Shown: positions 28,346-40,860 of the stretch, piece after piece
Position numbering within the stretch: position 1 is the first letter of the stretch
Layout of the letters: the number at the start of each line of letters is the position of its first letter
Source of the DNA: Solobacterium sp.
GTDB lineage: Bacteria; Bacillota_I; Bacilli_A; Erysipelotrichales; Erysipelotrichaceae
NCBI GenBank assembly: GCA_017469885.1
Contig: JAFUFO010000038.1
Coordinates: forward strand, 186,001-250,000
Reading direction: 5' to 3'
Length of the DNA stretch: 64,000 bases
Made by a program: the position numbers and the translations under genes
The notes under the pieces: generated by a model
What the model was told of the DNA's origin: nothing
The model's database searches: none
The model's input: only the letters and a program-made list of their open reading frames with translations

Positions 28346-28439
28346 TTTTTTCAGTCATCGATATGAAAGCTGAAAAATGTATGCGCTTTCCGGGCATTTC
28401 CGTTGCATGTTCCACCCGTTTTGCCGCAAAATATGCCGT

Positions 28440-29141
28440 ATGAGTCTGCATCCTGAAAGTGTTCGCCTTGCCGCGAAAGATTCCATTCCGGTTCTTACCG
28501 GCTATGTTCTGCTCGGCATGGCTTACGGCATCTTTATGAATACCAGCGGATTTCCCTGGTACTATCCCGTCATAATGGCAATCGTCATTTACGGGGGTTC
28601 TCTGGAATTTGTCGCGGTGTCCCTGCTTCTGAGCCGGTTTGCGCCGCTTCAGACGTTTCTGCTTGCCTTTATGATTCAGGCAAGGCATCTGTTTTACGGA
28701 CTCGCCATGCTGGAAAAATACCATGGGGCAGGAACCCGTAAATTCTATCTGATCTATGCTCTCACGGATGAAACCTTCGCGGTTGCCGGAAGCCGTGTTC
28801 TGCCGGACAACATTAATAAATATGATTACTATTTTACGCTGTCCCTGCTTGACCACTGTTACTGGGTCACCGGCGCAGCGCTCGGCGGTATCTTCGGATC
28901 CTTTCTGCCGTTTGACACCACCGGTCTTGATTTCATGATGACCGCAATGTTTGTCGTAATCTTTCTGGACACCTGGATGCGGGAAAAGAGTCATCTTTCT
29001 TCCCTGATCGGATTCGGTGCTTCCTTTCTCTGCCTTGTGCTGTTCGGCGCAGACGGTTTTATCATTCCGTCCATGTGCGTGATTCTCTGTTTTCTGCTTG
29101 TATTCCGTAAGACGATCGCGGAAAAAGGAGGTTTCGAATGA
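28440..29141 (+). CDS. azlC: Branched-chain amino acid exporter, large subunit AzlC
   Basis: AzlC and AzlD together export branched-chain amino acids or analogues such as azaleucine. I take ATG 28440 as the start (233 aa, MSLHPESVRLAAKDSIPVLT); upstream in-frame ATGs add a non-membrane, Cys-rich stretch unlike the family. There are about five hydrophobic segments and the family motif FMIQARHLFYGLAML with DETFAV after it. The ribosome site is weak. The stop overlaps the azlD start (ATGA). Confidence 0.88.
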   Translation: MSLHPESVRLAAKDSIPVLTGYVLLGMAYGIFMNTSGFPWYYPVIMAIVIYGGSLEFVAVSLLLSRFAPLQTFLLAFMIQARHLFYGLAMLEKYHGAGTRKFYLIYALTDETFAVAGSRVLPDNINKYDYYFTLSLLDHCYWVTGAALGGIFGSFLPFDTTGLDFMMTAMFVVIFLDTWMREKSHLSSLIGFGASFLCLVLFGADGFIIPSMCVILCFLLVFRKTIAEKGGFE

Positions 29142-29473
29142 GTCCCCAGACGATTCCCCAGCAGGTCATCACGATCCTGCTGTGCACTGCCGCAACAATA
29201 CTTACGCGGTTCCTGCCGTTCCTTCTGTTCGGTCGTTCCGACCATGTGCCGCCGATCATCACCTATCTTGGCAAGGCACTTCCCTCCGCCGTGTTTGCGA
29301 TGCTGGTGGTGTACTGTCTGAAGAATGTATCCGTTACCGTGTCTCCCTTCGGCATTCCGGAACTGATCGGCATTACTGCCACTGCACTCATGCATCTCTG
29401 GAAGCGGAATACACTGCTTTCCATGTTTACCGGAACGCTGTTTTACATGCTGGTGATCCGGTTTCTGTTCTGA
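29138..29473 (+). CDS. azlD: Branched-chain amino acid exporter, small subunit AzlD
   Basis: The 111-aa protein has four hydrophobic segments with the family stretch LTRFLPFLLFGRS and LGKALPSAVFAML. It is translationally coupled to azlC through a 4-bp overlap, with a GGAGG site inside the end of azlC. The pair forms the AzlCD complex in the membrane. Confidence 0.88.
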   Translation: MSPQTIPQQVITILLCTAATILTRFLPFLLFGRSDHVPPIITYLGKALPSAVFAMLVVYCLKNVSVTVSPFGIPELIGITATALMHLWKRNTLLSMFTGTLFYMLVIRFLF

Positions 29474-31220: not shown

Positions 31221-31341
31221 AGACCGGCACCTCCTTCCCGTTTATGCACAACACTTAGTATTTTACCGCCGCGGCAGGAATGACTGCAATTTACATCCTC
31301 GGAATTTGCAAATCTTGATATCTGTGAATTTATTAACTAAA

Positions 31342-31360
31342 ATGAACATGTTCATATAAA
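31342..31360 (+). promoter_or_regulatory. TetR operator and -10 region
   Basis: A perfect 14-bp palindrome ATGAACATGTTCAT (31342-31355) overlaps the upstream edge of a TATAAA -10 box (31355-31360). The -10 ends 8 nt before the ATG of the TetR gene. The arrangement suggests autorepression of the operon by its own TetR protein. The -35 is weak. Confidence 0.65.
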
Positions 31361-31368
31361 GTGGTATT

Positions 31369-31902
31369 ATGCCGAAAGTAATTGACGGTCTTCAATCCAG
31401 AATCATGCAATCCGCAAGGGAACGGCTGTTTTCAACACCTCCCTCCTTTTCACTGCGTGCCATTGCGAAAGACTGCGGAATTGCGGTCGGCACAATCTAC
31501 AACTACTTTCCGAATAAGGAAACCCTGATTGCGTCTGTGTTTGCGGATGACTGGAATCACATCATCGCAGAGACTGAAGCCAGTATTTCCGCTTCGGAAG
31601 GAATTGAGGAAGGAGTTCGTGCGATTTATTCCGGTCTCGCCCGGTTCACGCAGTCGCACCGAACGGTATGGAACGCCTTTCCGTCATTCCCGGCTGCCGG
31701 CACCTATTTTCACAAAGGGCACCGGCTTCTCGTGGGACAGATTGAGCGCCTTCTCAACATGCTCTATGAACAGTTCGACAGAACACCGGATGCGGCAGGG
31801 CTTGTGCTTACGGCTGAGCTTCTGATTGCGGCATCCCAGCACTCGGAACTGTCCGAAGAGGAAATCATGCGTGTAATTCGACGACAGATAAAGGGGGAAT
31901 AA
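31369..31902 (+). CDS. TetR family transcriptional regulator
   Basis: The 177-aa protein has the N-terminal TetR HTH: FSLRAIAKDCGIAVGTIYNY followed by FPNKETLI (residues ~28-58). The C-terminal ligand-binding part is helical and unassigned. Family members are mostly repressors released by a small hydrophobic ligand. It is the first gene of a five-gene run, and the next ORF starts 3 bp after its stop. So the regulator is probably autoregulated together with the enzymes it controls. Confidence 0.9.
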   Translation: MPKVIDGLQSRIMQSARERLFSTPPSFSLRAIAKDCGIAVGTIYNYFPNKETLIASVFADDWNHIIAETEASISASEGIEEGVRAIYSGLARFTQSHRTVWNAFPSFPAAGTYFHKGHRLLVGQIERLLNMLYEQFDRTPDAAGLVLTAELLIAASQHSELSEEEIMRVIRRQIKGE

Positions 31903-31905
31903 TCA

Positions 31906-32841
31906 ATGTCCGGATTCAAAAATCTGCGTGTGGTAGACAACTTCTACCAGACATCGCTGTTTTTCCCGATGCCGGCAGTACTGATCAGCACACTGACCGA
32001 CGACGGAAAAACCACATGCGGCCCGTATTCTCTGCTTGCGCCGTTCTATGTCGCAGGCAAGGACTACTATGCATTCATCCTCGAGGCGCGCAATTCATCC
32101 AACACGGCGCAGAACCTCATCAAGCACAAGAAATGTGTCATCAACTTCCTGCCGGATGACCGCGGAACATTCAGGGAAATGGTTCGTCTCGGCTGGCCGG
32201 GAGACAAACCGGAAGAGAAGATGAAAGACTTCCGCTTCCATCTGGAAGACGGTCACCGCAAGGCGGAAGATCCCGACGGCGTATATCCGCAGGTCATTTC
32301 CGAAGCACTCCAGGCCGTGGAATGCACATGGGTCGACACCCTCGACAATGCGCAGGATACCCAGCCGCTTCCGGAAGGTCAGGATCATTATGTGCTCGAC
32401 AAATATCATGACTTCAACGGCATCACAACGCCGTACGGTGCACACTTCGTTCTGCGTATCGATAAGATCCTCATGAAGGAGAAATACTACAACGGTATCG
32501 TCAACGGTGTGAAGCGCTCCGACTTCCCGCCCCTGCCGGTCGACTACGGCTACCGGGATTCCAAAAACTTCTGGTATCACAAGCACCGGTGGATGCTGCC
32601 GGAACTTCTCCCGCAGCGTGAAACAACCGTCCAATCCGTACGCTATGCCGCCAACCGGCTTCAGACGGATGTGGAATTTACCGATGAAGCGCTTGCCATG
32701 CTCGTCAAGGTGCCGCGCATCTTCCTGCCGACCGCACTCAAGGGCTGCGTCAAATGGGCAGAAGAAAACAATGTCAAAAAGATTGATGTTGAGCAGATGA
32801 AGATCATCAACGACAAGCGTTCCAAGGAAAAAGGAAAGTAA
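31906..32841 (+). CDS. Flavin reductase-like domain protein
   Basis: The 311-aa protein has an N-terminal FMN-binding split-barrel of the flavin reductase type (~15-200): MPAVLISTLTDDGKTTCGPY followed by SLLAPFYVAG, and RNSSNTAQNLIKHKKCVINF. The C-terminal ~90 residues are extra and helical, carrying MLVKVPRIFLP. Family proteins bind FMN and either reduce it for a partner oxygenase or reductase or act directly. In an anaerobe it could feed electrons to reduction of an organic substrate. An AGGGGGAATAATCA site precedes the ATG. Confidence 0.8.
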   Translation: MSGFKNLRVVDNFYQTSLFFPMPAVLISTLTDDGKTTCGPYSLLAPFYVAGKDYYAFILEARNSSNTAQNLIKHKKCVINFLPDDRGTFREMVRLGWPGDKPEEKMKDFRFHLEDGHRKAEDPDGVYPQVISEALQAVECTWVDTLDNAQDTQPLPEGQDHYVLDKYHDFNGITTPYGAHFVLRIDKILMKEKYYNGIVNGVKRSDFPPLPVDYGYRDSKNFWYHKHRWMLPELLPQRETTVQSVRYAANRLQTDVEFTDEALAMLVKVPRIFLPTALKGCVKWAEENNVKKIDVEQMKIINDKRSKEKGK

Positions 32842-32883
32842 TCAGAATCACAGATTACGGCATTCAACAGGAGGATAAAAATA

Positions 32884-33747
32884 ATGAAAGTATTGCTTGC
32901 AGGTGCGTTCGGAAATCTCGGATTTGAGCTTCTGAAATGTCTGACCGCAGAAGGACACGAAGTCATTGCGGCAGATCTGAAGGAAAAGGAAAACAACGGA
33001 CTGGAAGGAAAATATTCCTTCCGTGCCATCGATGCCACAAACGCAAAGACACTGGAAGGTATCTGTGACGGATGCAACATCGTCATCACCACAATGGGCC
33101 TTACCGGCGCATCCACAAAGTTTACCGCATATGACATCGACTATCAGGGAAACATGAACCTGTACAACGAAGCGGTGAAAGCCGGCGTCAAGAAATTCAA
33201 TTACATCTCCGTCATTGCATGCAATGAACCGGGCGCAGAAAAGGTTCCGATGCTGCATGCGAAGTTCATGGTCGAGGAAGAGCTGAAGAAAGGCTCCATG
33301 GATTATGTCATCTACCGTCCGACCGGATACTTCTACGACATTGCCAAGGTATTCAAGCCTTACGTTGATAAAGGCGAGATGCAGCTGCTGAAAGGCTATC
33401 ACGGCGTCAAGGCAAACGTTGTCGACTGCCCTGACTTCGCAAAGTTCATCGTTGCGCACATGAACGATACCAACAAGACTTATGAAGTCGGCGGAAAGGA
33501 AACCTACACCTACGAGGAAATGGCAAAGATGTGCTTCCGCGCTGCCGGCAAACCGGTCATCATCAAGGACAGCCCGATCTGGATGTTCGGTCTGCTCGCA
33601 AATCTTCCGAAGATCAAGAAGGAAGGAAAGCACGACATCATCCTGTTCTCCAAGTGGACGCTGTCCCATGATCTCGTCGGAAAAGATGTTACCGGCGATG
33701 CATCCTTTGCGGAATATATCAAAGAATACTTCGGAGGCAAGGCATAA
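32884..33747 (+). CDS. Atypical SDR, NAD(P)-binding oxidoreductase
   Basis: The 287-aa Rossmann protein has an N-terminal nucleotide loop AGAFGNLGFELL (residues 6-17) and an acidic residue after strand 2 (AADLKEKEN). The region where classic SDRs have YxxxK instead reads MLHAKFMVEEELKKGSMDYV, and is followed by IYRPTGYF. This is the NmrA/atypical SDR type, which includes reductases and redox sensors. It has a strong AGGAGG site. It is followed by the 5-alpha-reductase-like gene with a 1-bp overlap, implying coupled synthesis. Confidence 0.82.
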   Translation: MKVLLAGAFGNLGFELLKCLTAEGHEVIAADLKEKENNGLEGKYSFRAIDATNAKTLEGICDGCNIVITTMGLTGASTKFTAYDIDYQGNMNLYNEAVKAGVKKFNYISVIACNEPGAEKVPMLHAKFMVEEELKKGSMDYVIYRPTGYFYDIAKVFKPYVDKGEMQLLKGYHGVKANVVDCPDFAKFIVAHMNDTNKTYEVGGKETYTYEEMAKMCFRAAGKPVIIKDSPIWMFGLLANLPKIKKEGKHDIILFSKWTLSHDLVGKDVTGDASFAEYIKEYFGGKA

Positions 33748-34574
33748 TGTTCAAACTTGATCCCTCCTATATCGGCAAAGTATGGCCTGCCTTCATGTGG
33801 GGCGTTATGCTCGTTGCGGCAATCGGCTGCTGCATGGGCTTCAAGGAATTTGTCTGGTTCATGTCCGTCGGCTACGGCTTTGCGGTCATGTGCATCGGCA
33901 TCTACCTGCTTGCCTTCGGTCTCATCACTCATACGATTACGCTGGCAACCGCGATCATGGCAATTCTGTTCATCATCTACGGTTACCGTCTCGGCGGTTA
34001 TATTCTCAAGCGTGAGCTTACCAATGCCCACTACCGCAAGAAGCTGGAATCCACCGGTTCTGCAAAGGCAATGCCGCTTCCGGTTTCCCTCTGCATGTGG
34101 ATTTACTCCATGTGGATGTATACCGCACAGACTTCCGCAGTCACCTATCGTTTCATGAACCGGGCAAATGACAACATCTTTGCCTGGATCGGAATCATCA
34201 TCATGATCGTTGCGATCATCGGTGAAGCAACCGCAGATGCACAGAAGTCCGCCGCAAAGAAGATCAATCCGAAGCGGTTCTGCGACACCGGACTCTACAA
34301 AATTGTCCGCTGCCCGAACTACTTCTGTGAGATTCTGTTCTGGTTCGGCGTCACCGTATCCGGTATCGGAGCGGTACAGGGAAAACAGTGGATCATGGTT
34401 CTGCTTGCATTTGCGCTCATCACCTATGTCATGTTCAACTCCGCACAGCGTCTTGAACTCCGTCATGAAAAGACATACGGTCTTGACCCGGAATATCAGA
34501 AGTATTCGGACACCGTTCCCCTTCTGATTCCGTTCTCAAAGCAGTATCATTCTTTCCCGGTATACAGAGACTGA
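33747..34574 (+). CDS. DUF1295 / steroid 5-alpha-reductase-fold membrane enzyme
   Basis: The 275-aa protein has six to seven membrane helices and the C-terminal signature of the steroid 5-alpha-reductase/isoprenylcysteine methyltransferase superfamily: RFCDTGLYKIVRCPNYFCEI at ~172-191, then LFWFG, and later RLELRHEKTYGLDPEYQKYS. In SRD5A enzymes the equivalent Asn-Tyr and Glu bind NADPH and the steroid. DUF1295 members reduce a C=C bond next to a carbonyl in steroids or lipids, or are uncharacterised. Position in an SDR/flavin-protein operon under TetR control supports a reductase role. The substrate is unknown. Confidence 0.82.
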   Translation: MFKLDPSYIGKVWPAFMWGVMLVAAIGCCMGFKEFVWFMSVGYGFAVMCIGIYLLAFGLITHTITLATAIMAILFIIYGYRLGGYILKRELTNAHYRKKLESTGSAKAMPLPVSLCMWIYSMWMYTAQTSAVTYRFMNRANDNIFAWIGIIIMIVAIIGEATADAQKSAAKKINPKRFCDTGLYKIVRCPNYFCEILFWFGVTVSGIGAVQGKQWIMVLLAFALITYVMFNSAQRLELRHEKTYGLDPEYQKYSDTVPLLIPFSKQYHSFPVYRD

Positions 34575-34578
34575 ATTT

Positions 34579-35172
34579 ATGAATTCATTTACTGTCCCGA
34601 TGGCGCTTGTGGATTATATTCCGGTAATTCTGTTTCTTCTTGGAACAACGATTATCGCAAAGGATCTGAAGCACCGTATCTCATCCATCTCCTGGTGGCT
34701 CTTCACCATCGGCATTGTCATAGTCACCGCAGCCGGTGCACTCAAGGCAACCTATAAACTTCTGTGTGCCCTGAATATTGCGGATGTCACCTGGATGACA
34801 AAACAGTTTTTCTCCAATCAGGCAATCGGATTCCTGCTTGCGGGAATCGGTCTGACCATCGGCGTCACTTCACTGAAAGGAAAGACCCTCGCGCTGATTC
34901 CCACGATGGCGCTTGTCGGCATCATGGTGATCGGTCTTGGCGCAATGGACGCTTCTCTCGCCTTCCTTGCGAGCAGACTGAAAAAGCGCAGTGCGCTTGT
35001 CTGTTTCATCGTTTCCTTCTTCCTGTGTCTGGGAATGGGATATCTTTCCTCAAAGGACTTCACCCAGGCATCTATGAACTGGATTGCGCAGGGTGTCAAC
35101 CTTGCCGGACAGCTGCTGTTATACATTGGCTGCCGTCAGCTGCATGACGCAGGTCTTGCGGATCTGAAGTAA
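34579..35172 (+). CDS. Multi-pass membrane protein at the end of the TetR operon
   Basis: The 197-aa protein has six hydrophobic segments (e.g. YIPVILFLLGTTIIAKDL, AIGFLLAGIGLTIGVTSLKG). It begins 4 bp after the 5-alpha-reductase-like gene and ends at a strong terminator. There are no recognisable catalytic motifs. It could be a transporter, a membrane partner of the reductase or a charge-translocating subunit; I cannot choose. The ribosome site (AGAGACTGAATTT) is weak, consistent with coupling. Confidence 0.7.
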   Translation: MNSFTVPMALVDYIPVILFLLGTTIIAKDLKHRISSISWWLFTIGIVIVTAAGALKATYKLLCALNIADVTWMTKQFFSNQAIGFLLAGIGLTIGVTSLKGKTLALIPTMALVGIMVIGLGAMDASLAFLASRLKKRSALVCFIVSFFLCLGMGYLSSKDFTQASMNWIAQGVNLAGQLLLYIGCRQLHDAGLADLK

Positions 35173-35177
35173 GACAA

Positions 35178-35212
35178 AGCCGGAACTCTTATATGGGTTC
35201 CGGCTCCTTTTT
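35178..35212 (+). terminator. Terminator of the TetR operon
   Basis: A 9-bp perfect stem AGCCGGAAC/GTTCCGGCT with a 10-nt loop is followed by CCTTTTT. Confidence 0.85.
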
Positions 35213-37287: not shown

Positions 37288-40200
37288 TCAGCCGTTGAGG
37301 GAATCACGCAGTCTGACATAGGTCTTCCAGCGTTCATCCGCGTCCTTCTGCGCCGCATCGAAGAGTCTCTTTGCGGTTTCGGGGAACTTGATCTTGAGGC
37401 CTGCGAAACGTACCTGTCCGTCGAAGAAGTCGGTAACCGGACGGCTCGGCTCCTTGTAGTCGAGCGAGAACGGATTGACTTCCTTATCCGGGTTGTAGCG
37501 GTACAGCGGCCACAGACCGCAGTCAACAGCCTTCTTCATCTCAGCCTGTACGTTTGCCATACCGGCCTTGATGCCGTGGTTGATGCACGGTGCGTATGCG
37601 ACGATGAGGGACGGTCCCTTATGGTTGACCGCTTCCGTAACCGCCTGGATCAGCTGGTTCGGATTTGCGCCCATCGCTACGGATGCGACATAGGTATTCG
37701 GATAGTTCATGAGGATGCGTCCGAGATCCTTCTTCGCGGTGGTCTTTCCGCCATCCGCAAACTTCGCCGATGCGCCCAGCGGTGTCGCCTTGGAGGACTG
37801 TCCGCCGGTATTGGAATAGACTTCCGTATCAACGACCATGATGTTGATGTCTTCGTTCATGGCGATCACGTGGTCGAGTCCGCCGTAGCCGATATCATAC
37901 GCCCAGCCATCGCCGCCGTAGAGCCATACCACTTTCTTGGAGAGCTGATCCTTGTTTTCAAGAACCGCTTCCGCAAGCTTGGCGGCTTCGCCTTCATACT
38001 TCGTGCTTTCAATGACCTTTACGAGTGCTCTGGAATCTGCGTCACTCTGTTCAAGATCATCGAAGGTCTCGAGCCACTTCTTTGCGGCAGCTTCAGTCTC
38101 TGTGCCCGGAACTGCAGCCATGAGTGCTTCGACTGCGTTCTTTTCCGCATTTCTGCGCTGGTTGACACCGAGTACCACACCGAGTCCGTTTTCTGCGGAG
38201 TCTTCAAACAGAGTTCCGTAGAATGCCGGGCCGCGGCCTTCCTTATTCTTGGTGTACGGCAGTGACGGGAATGCTCCTGCCCATGCGAGCGAGCATCCGA
38301 CACCGTTGACCCAGTAGGTCTTTTCGCCGTAGAGCTGTGTGATGAGTTTTGCGTACGGGGTTTCGCCGCAGCCTGCGCATGCGCCGGAGAATTCAACCAG
38401 CGGCTGGTAGAACTGGGAGCCCTTGATCGTATTGCGCTTTGTATTGCCGTGCTTGTCCTTGAGACTCAGCGCATAGTTCCAGTTGGTCTCGTCGCGCATT
38501 GCGGTTTCGTCCGCCTTCTCCATGACGAGTGCCTTTTCCTTGGCCGGGCAGACCGATGCACAGCTTCCGCAGCCAGTGCAGTCCATCGTGCTGACCTGAA
38601 TACGGAACTTGAGATCCGGCATGCCGATGGCATTTGCGGTAACGAAGCCTTCCGGTTTCGCAGCTTCTTCTTCCGCATCTACGAGATAGGAACGGATTGC
38701 GGCATGCGGGCATACATATGCGCACATGTTGCACTGTACGCACTTGGACGGATCCCAGCTCGGCAGCATCGCCGCAATACCGCGCTTGTCATACTTGGAG
38801 GTTCCAAGATCGTAGGTGCCGTCCTGGTGGTTGATGAATGCGGATACCGGGAGCTTGTCGCCGACCTGGCGGTTGCACGGGATGACGATCTTGCGTACGG
38901 TTTCCGGAAGATTCTCGTCGATGACAGTATCATCGACACAGTCGGACCAGGAAGCCGGAACATCGACCTTGACCGGGCTGTTGATACCGGCATCTACGGC
39001 CGCGATATTCATGTTTACGACTTTCTCGCCCTTCTTGGAATAGGTCTTAACGACCGCTTCCTTCATGTGCTGCACGGCCTCTTCGACCGGCATGACATTT
39101 GCGAGTTTGAAGAACGCAGCCTGCAGGATCATGTTGGCATGGTTGCCGAGGCCGAGTTCACGCGCTTTTGTATTTGCGTCAACGATGTAGAAGTTGACGT
39201 TATGGTCTGCGATATACTTCTTGACTGCCGCAGGAAGCTTTTCATCGAGTTCTTCCGGCTTCCATGTGCAGTTGAGAAGGAAGGTTCCGCCGTCCTTGAC
39301 CTCATGGATCATGTCATAGCGGTAAATGTAGGACTCCGCATGGCAGGCCAGGAAATCCGCAGCCGTGATCAGATACGTGGAACGGATCGGATCTTTCGAG
39401 AAACGCAGATGGCTCTTGGTAATACCGTAGGATTTCTTGGTGTCATATTCGAAGTATGCCTGTGTGTACTTGCCGGCATAGTCACCGATGATCTTTGCGG
39501 AGTTCTTGTTTGCGCCGACGGTTCCGTCAGAGCCAAGACCCCAGAACTTGCAGGAAACGGTATCTGCGGATTCGGTAACGAGCGGTTCATGAACTTCCAG
39601 GGACAGATGTGTGACATCGTCGTTGACACCGATTGTGAAGAGCTTCTTCGGTGTTTCGGCGTTCATGTTGTCGAAGACTGCCTTCAGCTGAGCCGGAGTG
39701 ACGTCCTTGGACGCAAGACCGTATCTGCCGCCGAAGATTTCCGGCGCGTTTTCGTCATTTGCGAAGGATGCGCAGGTATCGAGATATACCGCACCGGCAA
39801 TGGCGCCCGGCTCCTTGGAGCGGTCCATCGCTGTGATCTTCTTGACCGTGGACGGGATGGCCTTCTTGAAGGTCTCCATGTCGAACGGACGGAACAGATG
39901 GATCTTGAGAAGTCCGGTCTTTTCGCCGCGGGCGTTGAGATAATCAATGACTTCCTCTGCTGCCTCACAGGCGCTGCCCATCATGACGATGACGCGGTCT
40001 GCGTCTTCGGCACCGTAGTAGTTGAAGATGTGGTAGTCACGGCCTGTGATCTTGTTGATGCCCTGCATGTATTCTTCAACCACTGCAGGGATGTTGTTGT
40101 ATGCGCCGTTGTTGGCTTCTTCCGACTGATAGTAGACATCGGAGCCCTGAACGGTGGTGCGCATCAGCGGGTGTTCCGGGTTCATTGCGATTTCATGGAA

Positions 40201-40809
40201 GTGACGCAGCGCATCCTTGTCCATGAGTTCCGCAACCTTGTCGAGATCGATAACTTCGATCTTCTGGATTTCGTGGGATGTACGGAAACCGTCAAAGAAA
40301 TGCATGAACGGAACGCGGGTCTTGATCGTTGTCAGATGTGCAACCGCGCTGAGGTCCATTGCCTCCTGTACGGATGCGGTGCTCATCATAGCGGCACCGG
40401 TCGTACGGCAGGTCATGACATCCTGATGGTCACCGAAGATGTTGTTTGCGTGCTGGGCAACCGAACGCGCCGCAACGTGGAAGACGGACGGCATCCGGTG
40501 TCCGGACATGATGTAGAGGTTCGGAATCATGAGGAGAAGACCCTGCGATGAGGTGAATGTGGTCGCCAGCGCACCGGATTCCGCAACACCGTGCAGAGCA
40601 CCGGCAGCGCCGGCCTCCGATTCCATTTCGATCAGCTTGACCTGCTGACCGAACATATTCTTTCTTCCGCCTGCGGACCACTCGTCAACGTGCTCCGACA
40701 TCGGGGAGGAAGGTGTGATCGGGAAAATCGCCGCAACATCCGTGAAGTGATACGCCACATACGCGCAGGCTTCATTTCCATCCATTGTTTTCATTACTTT
40801 TTCTGTCAT
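37288..40809 (-). CDS. nifJ: Pyruvate:ferredoxin (flavodoxin) oxidoreductase
   Basis: PFOR converts pyruvate and CoA to acetyl-CoA, CO2 and reduced ferredoxin, the central fermentative step of anaerobes. The start is ATG 40809 (ACAGGAGAACAC site), giving 1173 aa, normal for the single-chain enzyme. Visible features: the N-terminal pyruvate-binding region FPITPSSPMSEHVDEW; two ferredoxin-type 4Fe-4S motifs CVQCNMCAYVCP and CTGCGSCASVCP (~680-760); and the C-terminal TPP domain with GACAGCGETPYAKL and a DTEVYSNTGGQ segment. It follows the IlvD-family gene by 78 bp with an intervening hairpin and no terminator-type T-run, so partial co-transcription is likely. Confidence 0.97.
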   Translation of the reverse strand: MTEKVMKTMDGNEACAYVAYHFTDVAAIFPITPSSPMSEHVDEWSAGGRKNMFGQQVKLIEMESEAGAAGALHGVAESGALATTFTSSQGLLLMIPNLYIMSGHRMPSVFHVAARSVAQHANNIFGDHQDVMTCRTTGAAMMSTASVQEAMDLSAVAHLTTIKTRVPFMHFFDGFRTSHEIQKIEVIDLDKVAELMDKDALRHFHEIAMNPEHPLMRTTVQGSDVYYQSEEANNGAYNNIPAVVEEYMQGINKITGRDYHIFNYYGAEDADRVIVMMGSACEAAEEVIDYLNARGEKTGLLKIHLFRPFDMETFKKAIPSTVKKITAMDRSKEPGAIAGAVYLDTCASFANDENAPEIFGGRYGLASKDVTPAQLKAVFDNMNAETPKKLFTIGVNDDVTHLSLEVHEPLVTESADTVSCKFWGLGSDGTVGANKNSAKIIGDYAGKYTQAYFEYDTKKSYGITKSHLRFSKDPIRSTYLITAADFLACHAESYIYRYDMIHEVKDGGTFLLNCTWKPEELDEKLPAAVKKYIADHNVNFYIVDANTKARELGLGNHANMILQAAFFKLANVMPVEEAVQHMKEAVVKTYSKKGEKVVNMNIAAVDAGINSPVKVDVPASWSDCVDDTVIDENLPETVRKIVIPCNRQVGDKLPVSAFINHQDGTYDLGTSKYDKRGIAAMLPSWDPSKCVQCNMCAYVCPHAAIRSYLVDAEEEAAKPEGFVTANAIGMPDLKFRIQVSTMDCTGCGSCASVCPAKEKALVMEKADETAMRDETNWNYALSLKDKHGNTKRNTIKGSQFYQPLVEFSGACAGCGETPYAKLITQLYGEKTYWVNGVGCSLAWAGAFPSLPYTKNKEGRGPAFYGTLFEDSAENGLGVVLGVNQRRNAEKNAVEALMAAVPGTETEAAAKKWLETFDDLEQSDADSRALVKVIESTKYEGEAAKLAEAVLENKDQLSKKVVWLYGGDGWAYDIGYGGLDHVIAMNEDINIMVVDTEVYSNTGGQSSKATPLGASAKFADGGKTTAKKDLGRILMNYPNTYVASVAMGANPNQLIQAVTEAVNHKGPSLIVAYAPCINHGIKAGMANVQAEMKKAVDCGLWPLYRYNPDKEVNPFSLDYKEPSRPVTDFFDGQVRFAGLKIKFPETAKRLFDAAQKDADERWKTYVRLRDSLNG

Positions 40810-40830
40810 GTGTTCTCCTGTAATCCGGTT

Positions 40831-40860
40831 CAGCTCCCGGTTTTTTTTCACCGGGAGCTG
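40831..40860. other. Perfect hairpin between the dehydratase gene and nifJ
   Basis: An 11-bp perfect inverted repeat CAGCTCCCGGT/ACCGGGAGCTG has an A/T-only loop. There is no T-run after the stem on the transcribed strand, so it does not read as an intrinsic terminator. It may be an RNA processing or stabilising element between ilvD-type and nifJ messages. Confidence 0.6.

Follow-up and report, generated by a model that had tools for sequence, protein, structure and literature searches.

A TetR-controlled reductase operon of Solobacterium sp. whose hydrophobic ligand may be a tetrapyrrole-derived pigment

We analyzed a 64,000-nt stretch, hereafter the window, from the genome of Solobacterium sp., a ruminant-type gut bacterium; all feature coordinates follow the numbering of the window. 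Positions 31369-35172 hold five plus-strand genes that encode a TetR regulator, a flavin mononucleotide (FMN) split-barrel protein, a short-chain dehydrogenase/reductase (SDR), a reductase of the DUF1295 family and a membrane protein, MP6. Our best explanation, to which we assign a probability of roughly 0.4, is that these genes form an inducible system that reduces a conjugated, hydrophobic compound, with a tetrapyrrole derivative (a chlorophyll catabolite or a bilin) as the likeliest substrate. A tetrapyrrole is favored on account of a gene of about 223 amino acids (aa) to which the cassette is linked time and again, and with which it nearly always co-occurs within the genus; the product of that gene is confidently modeled with the fold of ferredoxin-dependent bilin reductases and red chlorophyll catabolite (RCC) reductases. 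We call this gene, which lies outside the window, the partner. The original prediction of a TetR-controlled operon dedicated to the reduction of a hydrophobic ligand is well supported by the conserved unit, the conserved operator and the NADPH-site residues. With moderate confidence, the steroid or bile acid that it had suggested is replaced by a pigment hypothesis. The features of the operon are as follows.

31315..31343, plus strand: promoter-like site TTGATA-17-TAAAAT, the -10 element of which reaches into the operator (consensus scan; by itself no proof of function)
31342..31355, no strand: operator palindrome ATGAACATGTTCAT with core TGAACNNGTTCA, a perfect 14-bp palindrome
31369..31902, plus strand: TetR-family regulator, 177 aa (PF00440 TetR_N, E = 3.7e-9)
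31906..32841, plus strand: FMN split-barrel protein, 311 aa, that has a small helical domain at the C-terminus (Flavin_Reduct, E = 0.005; AlphaFold2 model and Foldseek)
32680..32802, plus strand: part of the C-terminus of the FMN protein, with a weak resemblance to PCP_red (protochlorophyllide reductase 57 kD subunit; E = 0.15, below cut-off)
32884..33747, plus strand: atypical NmrA-type SDR, 287 aa, catalytic Tyr absent (NmrA/NAD_binding_10, E = 9e-13; alignment)
33747..34574, plus strand: DUF1295 / SRD5A-like membrane reductase, 275 aa (PF06966, E = 5.4e-28; PF02544, E = 5.6e-5; conserved residues)
34579..35172, plus strand: membrane protein MP6, 197 aa, family unassigned (hydrophobic segments; a conserved neighbor at 40 of the 80 named loci)
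35178..35205, plus strand: intrinsic-terminator-like hairpin that ends the operon, 11 pairs followed by CCTTTTTATC (hairpin scan)

The open reading frame positions and the palindrome at 31342-31355 bear out that five packed, co-directional genes stand behind a perfect 14-bp palindrome. Intergenic gaps along the unit are 3, 42, -1 and 4 bases, and the flanking genes on both sides lie on the opposite strand. The palindrome overlaps the promoter-like site. It is not a product of chance: the strict pattern WTGAACRYGTTCAW occurs a single time in the 2.66-Mb genome, at the operon, and the core TGAACNNGTTCA is kept upstream of related tetR genes (exact in 33 of 42 cases, with at most one mismatch in 39 of 42). 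Across these upstream regions the center of the core varies (AT, GC, AC or GT) while the arms stay constant, which is the pattern expected of an operator. Judged from the sequence, the locus is best read as an autoregulated TetR operon. Looking for the same five-gene order in related genomes, a check attached to the original prediction, we found TetR-FMN-SDR-DUF1295-MP6 again in congeners, amid unrelated neighbors.

Reshuffled cassettes were detected in Lachnospiraceae, Oscillospiraceae and Coriobacteriaceae. Plasmid pNP243 of Butyrivibrio fibrisolvens D1 carries TetR-SDR-DUF1295 together with a small hypothetical gene; the plasmid searches named no characterized relative. This strain and Pseudobutyrivibrio ruminis CF1b, in which the partner gene is present too, are the strain-named carriers, and the named carriers are mostly metagenome-assembled genomes from ruminant digestive tracts. 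A spermidine/putrescine-type ABC transporter set stands beside the partner or the DUF1295 cassette at L208, L210, L211 and L028:8807-12559, which may be chance.

We assessed how closely the partner is tied to the cassette. Of the 80 named loci, 20 or more have it no farther than 5 kb from DUF1295, and its placements are of at least four types: after the FMN gene (L039, L040, L042, L043); after DUF1295 or MP6 (L055, L057, L060, L112, L122); directly 5' of DUF1295 or the SDR (L105, L119, L121, L214); and divergent, with the operator in between (L033). L214 belongs to a different genus of the same family and has partner-SDR-DUF1295-MP6 consecutively. The 20 of 80 is probably an undercount, because G503 (the genome of L109) has a further copy apparently next to DUF1295. 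Among 60 genomes of the genus, DUF1295 is present in 16, the partner in 16 and both in 15. The partner is thus found in 15 of the 16 DUF1295 genomes versus 1 of the 44 others (Fisher p = 5e-12, a value that ignores descent), and 14 of those 16 have an unlinked copy. Only 3 of 392 genomes in a broad draw of the phylum have the partner, which is therefore rare outside carriers. In a one-marker-protein tree of 25 genus genomes, DUF1295 and the partner each change five times, and the partner changes the same way as DUF1295 in every independent pair; these are 3-5 pairs (three on well-supported branches), and with p = 0.25 they are too few for significance alone.

Besides the small number of pairs in the tree test, several observations weigh against a tetrapyrrole-reducing system. 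In the genome under study, the partner is unlinked and lies on another contig (L130:2654-3325, contig C11), and the operator was not found upstream of it. As the motif occurs only once genome-wide and not at the partner, co-regulation of the partner by the TetR of the operon is unsupported here. The ruminant excess among the carriers (of the 80 named loci, at least 57 bear ruminant-gut names) may come from the taxa chosen for the search. Outside the genus, 31 of 41 DUF1295 carriers that lack an adjacent partner have no partner anywhere in the genome, and none of the DUF1295 genomes of the sister family has one. The FMN protein is present without DUF1295 in 12 genomes of the genus, and the PCP_red scores of its C-terminus (see below) fall short of the cut-off. 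We also know of no DUF1295 enzyme that acts on a tetrapyrrole. Since many carriers lack the partner and the FMN protein occurs without DUF1295, we regard the partner as a frequent companion of the cassette, not a fixed part of it; it is not obligatory.

The neighbors of the partner on contig C11 are, by eye, cation-efflux-like, GtrA-like and transposase-like genes, and give no functional hint.

The same distribution bears on a broad detoxifying role against enones from plants or the diet, or against other xenobiotics, in which TetR would sense the toxin, the reductases would disarm it and the partner would be one of several add-ons. We consider this rather unlikely. The combination of TetR and reductases with variable partners, the many carriers without the partner gene and the herbivore-gut hosts fit such a role, but it leaves unexplained both the 15 of 16 co-occurrence in the genus and the repeated insertion of one tetrapyrrole-fold gene into the cassette.

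The fold of the partner was assigned from profiles and models. Fe_bilin_red is the only family that it matched repeatedly (14 of 19 members, best E = 1.5e-6); some members searched alone had no Pfam match, and the displayed member scored 19.8 bits against a Pfam cut-off of 31. Among PDB entries, a profile of the partner matched the bilin reductase of Guillardia (E = 5e-7). The AlphaFold2 model has a pLDDT of 94.3, and Foldseek returned 42 matches at E < 0.001, all of them to bilin reductases or RCC reductases apart from two chains of a chloroplast FtsHi complex. Against bilin reductases the model reaches Z 20-22 over about 220 residues, with 6qx6 at Z 22.0 and a root-mean-square deviation (rmsd) of 3.1 over 224 aligned residues. 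Plant RCC reductase shares the fold (Z 19) but has an identity of only about 11%; HemF came next, and unrelated entries had Z < 6. Asp84 of the L119 partner is invariant in 19 sequences, and the HMMER alignment places it on PebS Asp105, the catalytic Asp of PcyA/PebS. To our knowledge, proteins of this fold whose function has been established act on tetrapyrroles.

We compared the partner and the operon with known pigment-reducing systems. The partner resembles the ferredoxin-dependent bilin reductases and the pre-PcyA proteins of heterotrophs (PMC10151467) in fold and invariant Asp, and probably in family profile. Bilin reductases of heterotrophs (pre-PcyA) are known in other bacterial groups and gene settings, whereas the partner occurs in gut Firmicutes and Coriobacteriaceae, which the section of that paper on their distribution does not name. 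A further difference is that the partner is linked to DUF1295, SDR and FMN genes in relatives, and lies outside the operon here. We found no paper on bilin-reductase homologs of gut Firmicutes in a survey that covered mostly open-access literature and is weak evidence of absence. The bilQRS system (PMC10769871) is likewise a small regulator-plus-reductase operon of gut Bacillota, but its reductase bilR has the TIM barrel of an Old Yellow Enzyme and its regulator is of the MarR family, neither of which is in the operon; family searches found no TIM-barrel or Old Yellow Enzyme gene among the five genes. The bilQRS and bilV systems both rest on Old Yellow Enzymes (PMC10769871, PMC13252198), and the operon is neither of them.

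The membrane reductase belongs to the DUF1295 family, scoring 98.5 bits on PF06966 against a curated cut-off of 20.4. From its fold family and conserved cofactor residues we infer an NADPH-dependent membrane C=C reductase. The putative NADPH-site residues Asp164, Asn191, Glu195 and Arg235 are at least 99% conserved among 99 DUF1295 relatives and fit human D164, N193, E197 and R227 by position; position 239, which would fit human H231, is Arg in 99%. The ICMT profile scored 11.9 bits, below its cut-off of 24, and a solved ICMT structure was matched by the profile of the protein at E = 0.048. Like human SRD5A2 and PbSRD5A (PF02544), the protein is a membrane reductase; its NADPH half, at the C-terminus, is related to theirs (CPNY...E...W motif), with several of the NADPH-site residues in common. 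It differs in that DUF1295 is its best family, that it lacks the QE of the QEY motif and that its similarity to solved enzymes is only C-terminal: the profile matched PbSRD5A at E = 6e-5 over part of the NADPH-binding half.

This match is one of the reasons to consider a steroid or bile-acid system, that is, a 3-oxo-delta-4 steroid 5-alpha-reductase with accessory enzymes. The Steroid_dh profile narrowly passes its cut-off (23.6 versus 22.6 bits), and Tyr78, invariant in the 99 sequences, could match the catalytic Tyr of 5-alpha-reductases. However, DUF1295 outscores Steroid_dh by far (98.5 versus 23.6 bits), and no conserved Gln or acidic residue precedes Tyr78 in any of the 99 relatives, as judged by sequence register and not by structure. 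The QEY motif coordinates the steroid 3-ketone and is reported to be conserved in all studied steroid 5-alpha-reductases and needed for activity, with Q56, E57 and Y91 being essential (PMC7815742). Glu90, the sole conserved acidic or Gln column within the N-terminal 110 residues, lies after the Tyr and might serve another geometry. While the predicted NADPH site stands, the steroid or bile-acid idea is weakened by the missing QE, by a similarity confined to the NADPH half and by an SDR without its Tyr, and we regard it as disfavored and very unlikely.

The SDR keeps GxxGxxG, Ser109 and Lys127 (the latter invariant in 19 aligned sequences). All of these sequences have Met, Leu or Ile at the position four before Lys127, so that the YxxxK active site is absent. 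Because the catalytic Tyr is missing throughout, the protein is not a classical hydroxysteroid dehydrogenase, such as a 3-beta-hydroxysteroid dehydrogenase. A kinship of the SDR with divinyl-chlorophyllide 8-vinyl reductase (BciA/DVR) was considered but not adopted.

An SRD5A-like reductase beside an SDR also recalls the SRD5A3-DHRSX pair of dolichol synthesis, in which SRD5A3 acts together with the SDR DHRSX on polyprenal (PMC11607601). By analogy, the DUF1295 protein would reduce an allylic or alpha,beta-unsaturated isoprenoid or lipid, for example phytol or phytenal from chlorophyll, on the way to dihydrophytol and phytanic acid. We judge this unlikely. Rumen hydrogenation of phytol to dihydrophytol has been reported (PMC7551613), the cassette is carried on the plasmid of a rumen bacterium, B. 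fibrisolvens D1, and chlorophyll as a common dietary source would fit the bilin-reductase-fold partner. Yet the SDR is of the NmrA type and lacks the Tyr expected for an alcohol dehydrogenation of the DHRSX kind, and therefore does not fit the alcohol-oxidizing step of a phytol-type pathway; a polyprenol substrate is unsupported, and no tail-cleaving or fatty-aldehyde gene was recognized within the operon.

Pfam supports the predicted identities of the TetR, SDR and DUF1295 proteins, whereas the flavin-reductase-like protein is supported by its fold and not by the Pfam cut-off (Flavin_Reduct, 17.3 bits against 27). Relatives of this FMN protein match Flavin_Reduct with E-values down to 5.8e-7. 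Its AlphaFold2 model (pLDDT 78) matched flavin reductases in Foldseek at E = 1e-8 and aligned with 4z85 at Z 16.7 and rmsd 3.0 over 163 residues, which confirms a split-barrel flavin-reductase fold. An early profile search of the FMN protein against the PDB gave nothing useful, and its C-terminal domain had no PDB match by sequence. The segment at 32680-32802 is the best PCP_red match of the genome, and PCP_red matched the C-terminus in 9 of 19 relatives (best E = 0.0035, all below cut-off). We did not retain the domain as PCP_red; the match never exceeded the cut-off, the helical arrangement is also like that of AAA+ lid domains (RuvB), and the resemblance is a hint only. For MP6, family searches found no known family; it has several strong hydrophobic segments, which do not establish the predicted number of six helices.

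Other arrangements of related genes were observed. Next to the cassette, several close relatives carry an additional FMN-type split-barrel gene of a different kind (PNPOx_N, E about 1e-8), in some cases divergent (L070:3844-4356, L054:1525-2067, L027:5358-5933 and L086:2309-2848). In two congeners without DUF1295 (L186 and L187), TetR-FMN is paired with genes for a metallo-beta-lactamase-fold protein and an aconitase-like protein, and at L187 a 649-aa gene that by eye is Old Yellow Enzyme-like lies 5' of TetR. At L194:6687-7274, in a single congener, the FMN protein is reduced to its C-terminal domain, which follows an unrelated coding sequence; this resembles a gene remnant or fusion.

Elsewhere in the window, positions 37288-40851 hold a second gene like those for pyruvate:ferredoxin oxidoreductase. 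It shares about 47% identity with the copy on contig C39, and a search of 30 genomes found a near-identical counterpart in just one further congener (G049). By eye, the 254-aa and 111-aa genes at 28377-29473 resemble a pair that exports branched-chain amino acids (AzlC/AzlD).

For the tetrapyrrole-reducing system that we favor, the following mechanism can be proposed. TetR would sit on the TGAACATGTTCA operator over the promoter and be released by the hydrophobic ligand. The DUF1295 protein would carry out NADPH-dependent C=C reduction in the membrane, with MP6 as a putative membrane partner. The Tyr-less SDR and the FMN split-barrel protein, as soluble NAD(P)H/flavin oxidoreductases, may supply electrons or carry out a prior reduction of the ligand. 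The ligand class would be a tetrapyrrole-derived pigment of the herbivore gut, either a chlorophyll catabolite or a bilin; plant or blood pigments are likelier candidates than steroids.

Phylloerythrin is a chlorophyll breakdown product that causes photosensitization in ruminants. We tentatively raise the possibility, on the doubtful side, that a bilin-reductase-fold enzyme together with DUF1295, Tyr-less SDR and FMN proteins makes up an undescribed anaerobic reduction of tetrapyrroles by gut bacteria, for example vinyl reductions of the phylloerythrin kind in ruminants, with chlorophyll catabolites or bile pigments as substrates.

These results advise caution in labeling DUF1295 genes of gut bacteria as steroid 5-alpha-reductases unless the QEY motif has been checked. 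The strain-named carriers make the pigment hypothesis testable. If true, it would provide gene candidates for the anaerobic reduction of chlorophyll-derived or bile pigments in the ruminant gut outside the bilR/bilV route, and the bilin-reductase superfamily would gain members in non-photosynthetic gut Firmicutes.

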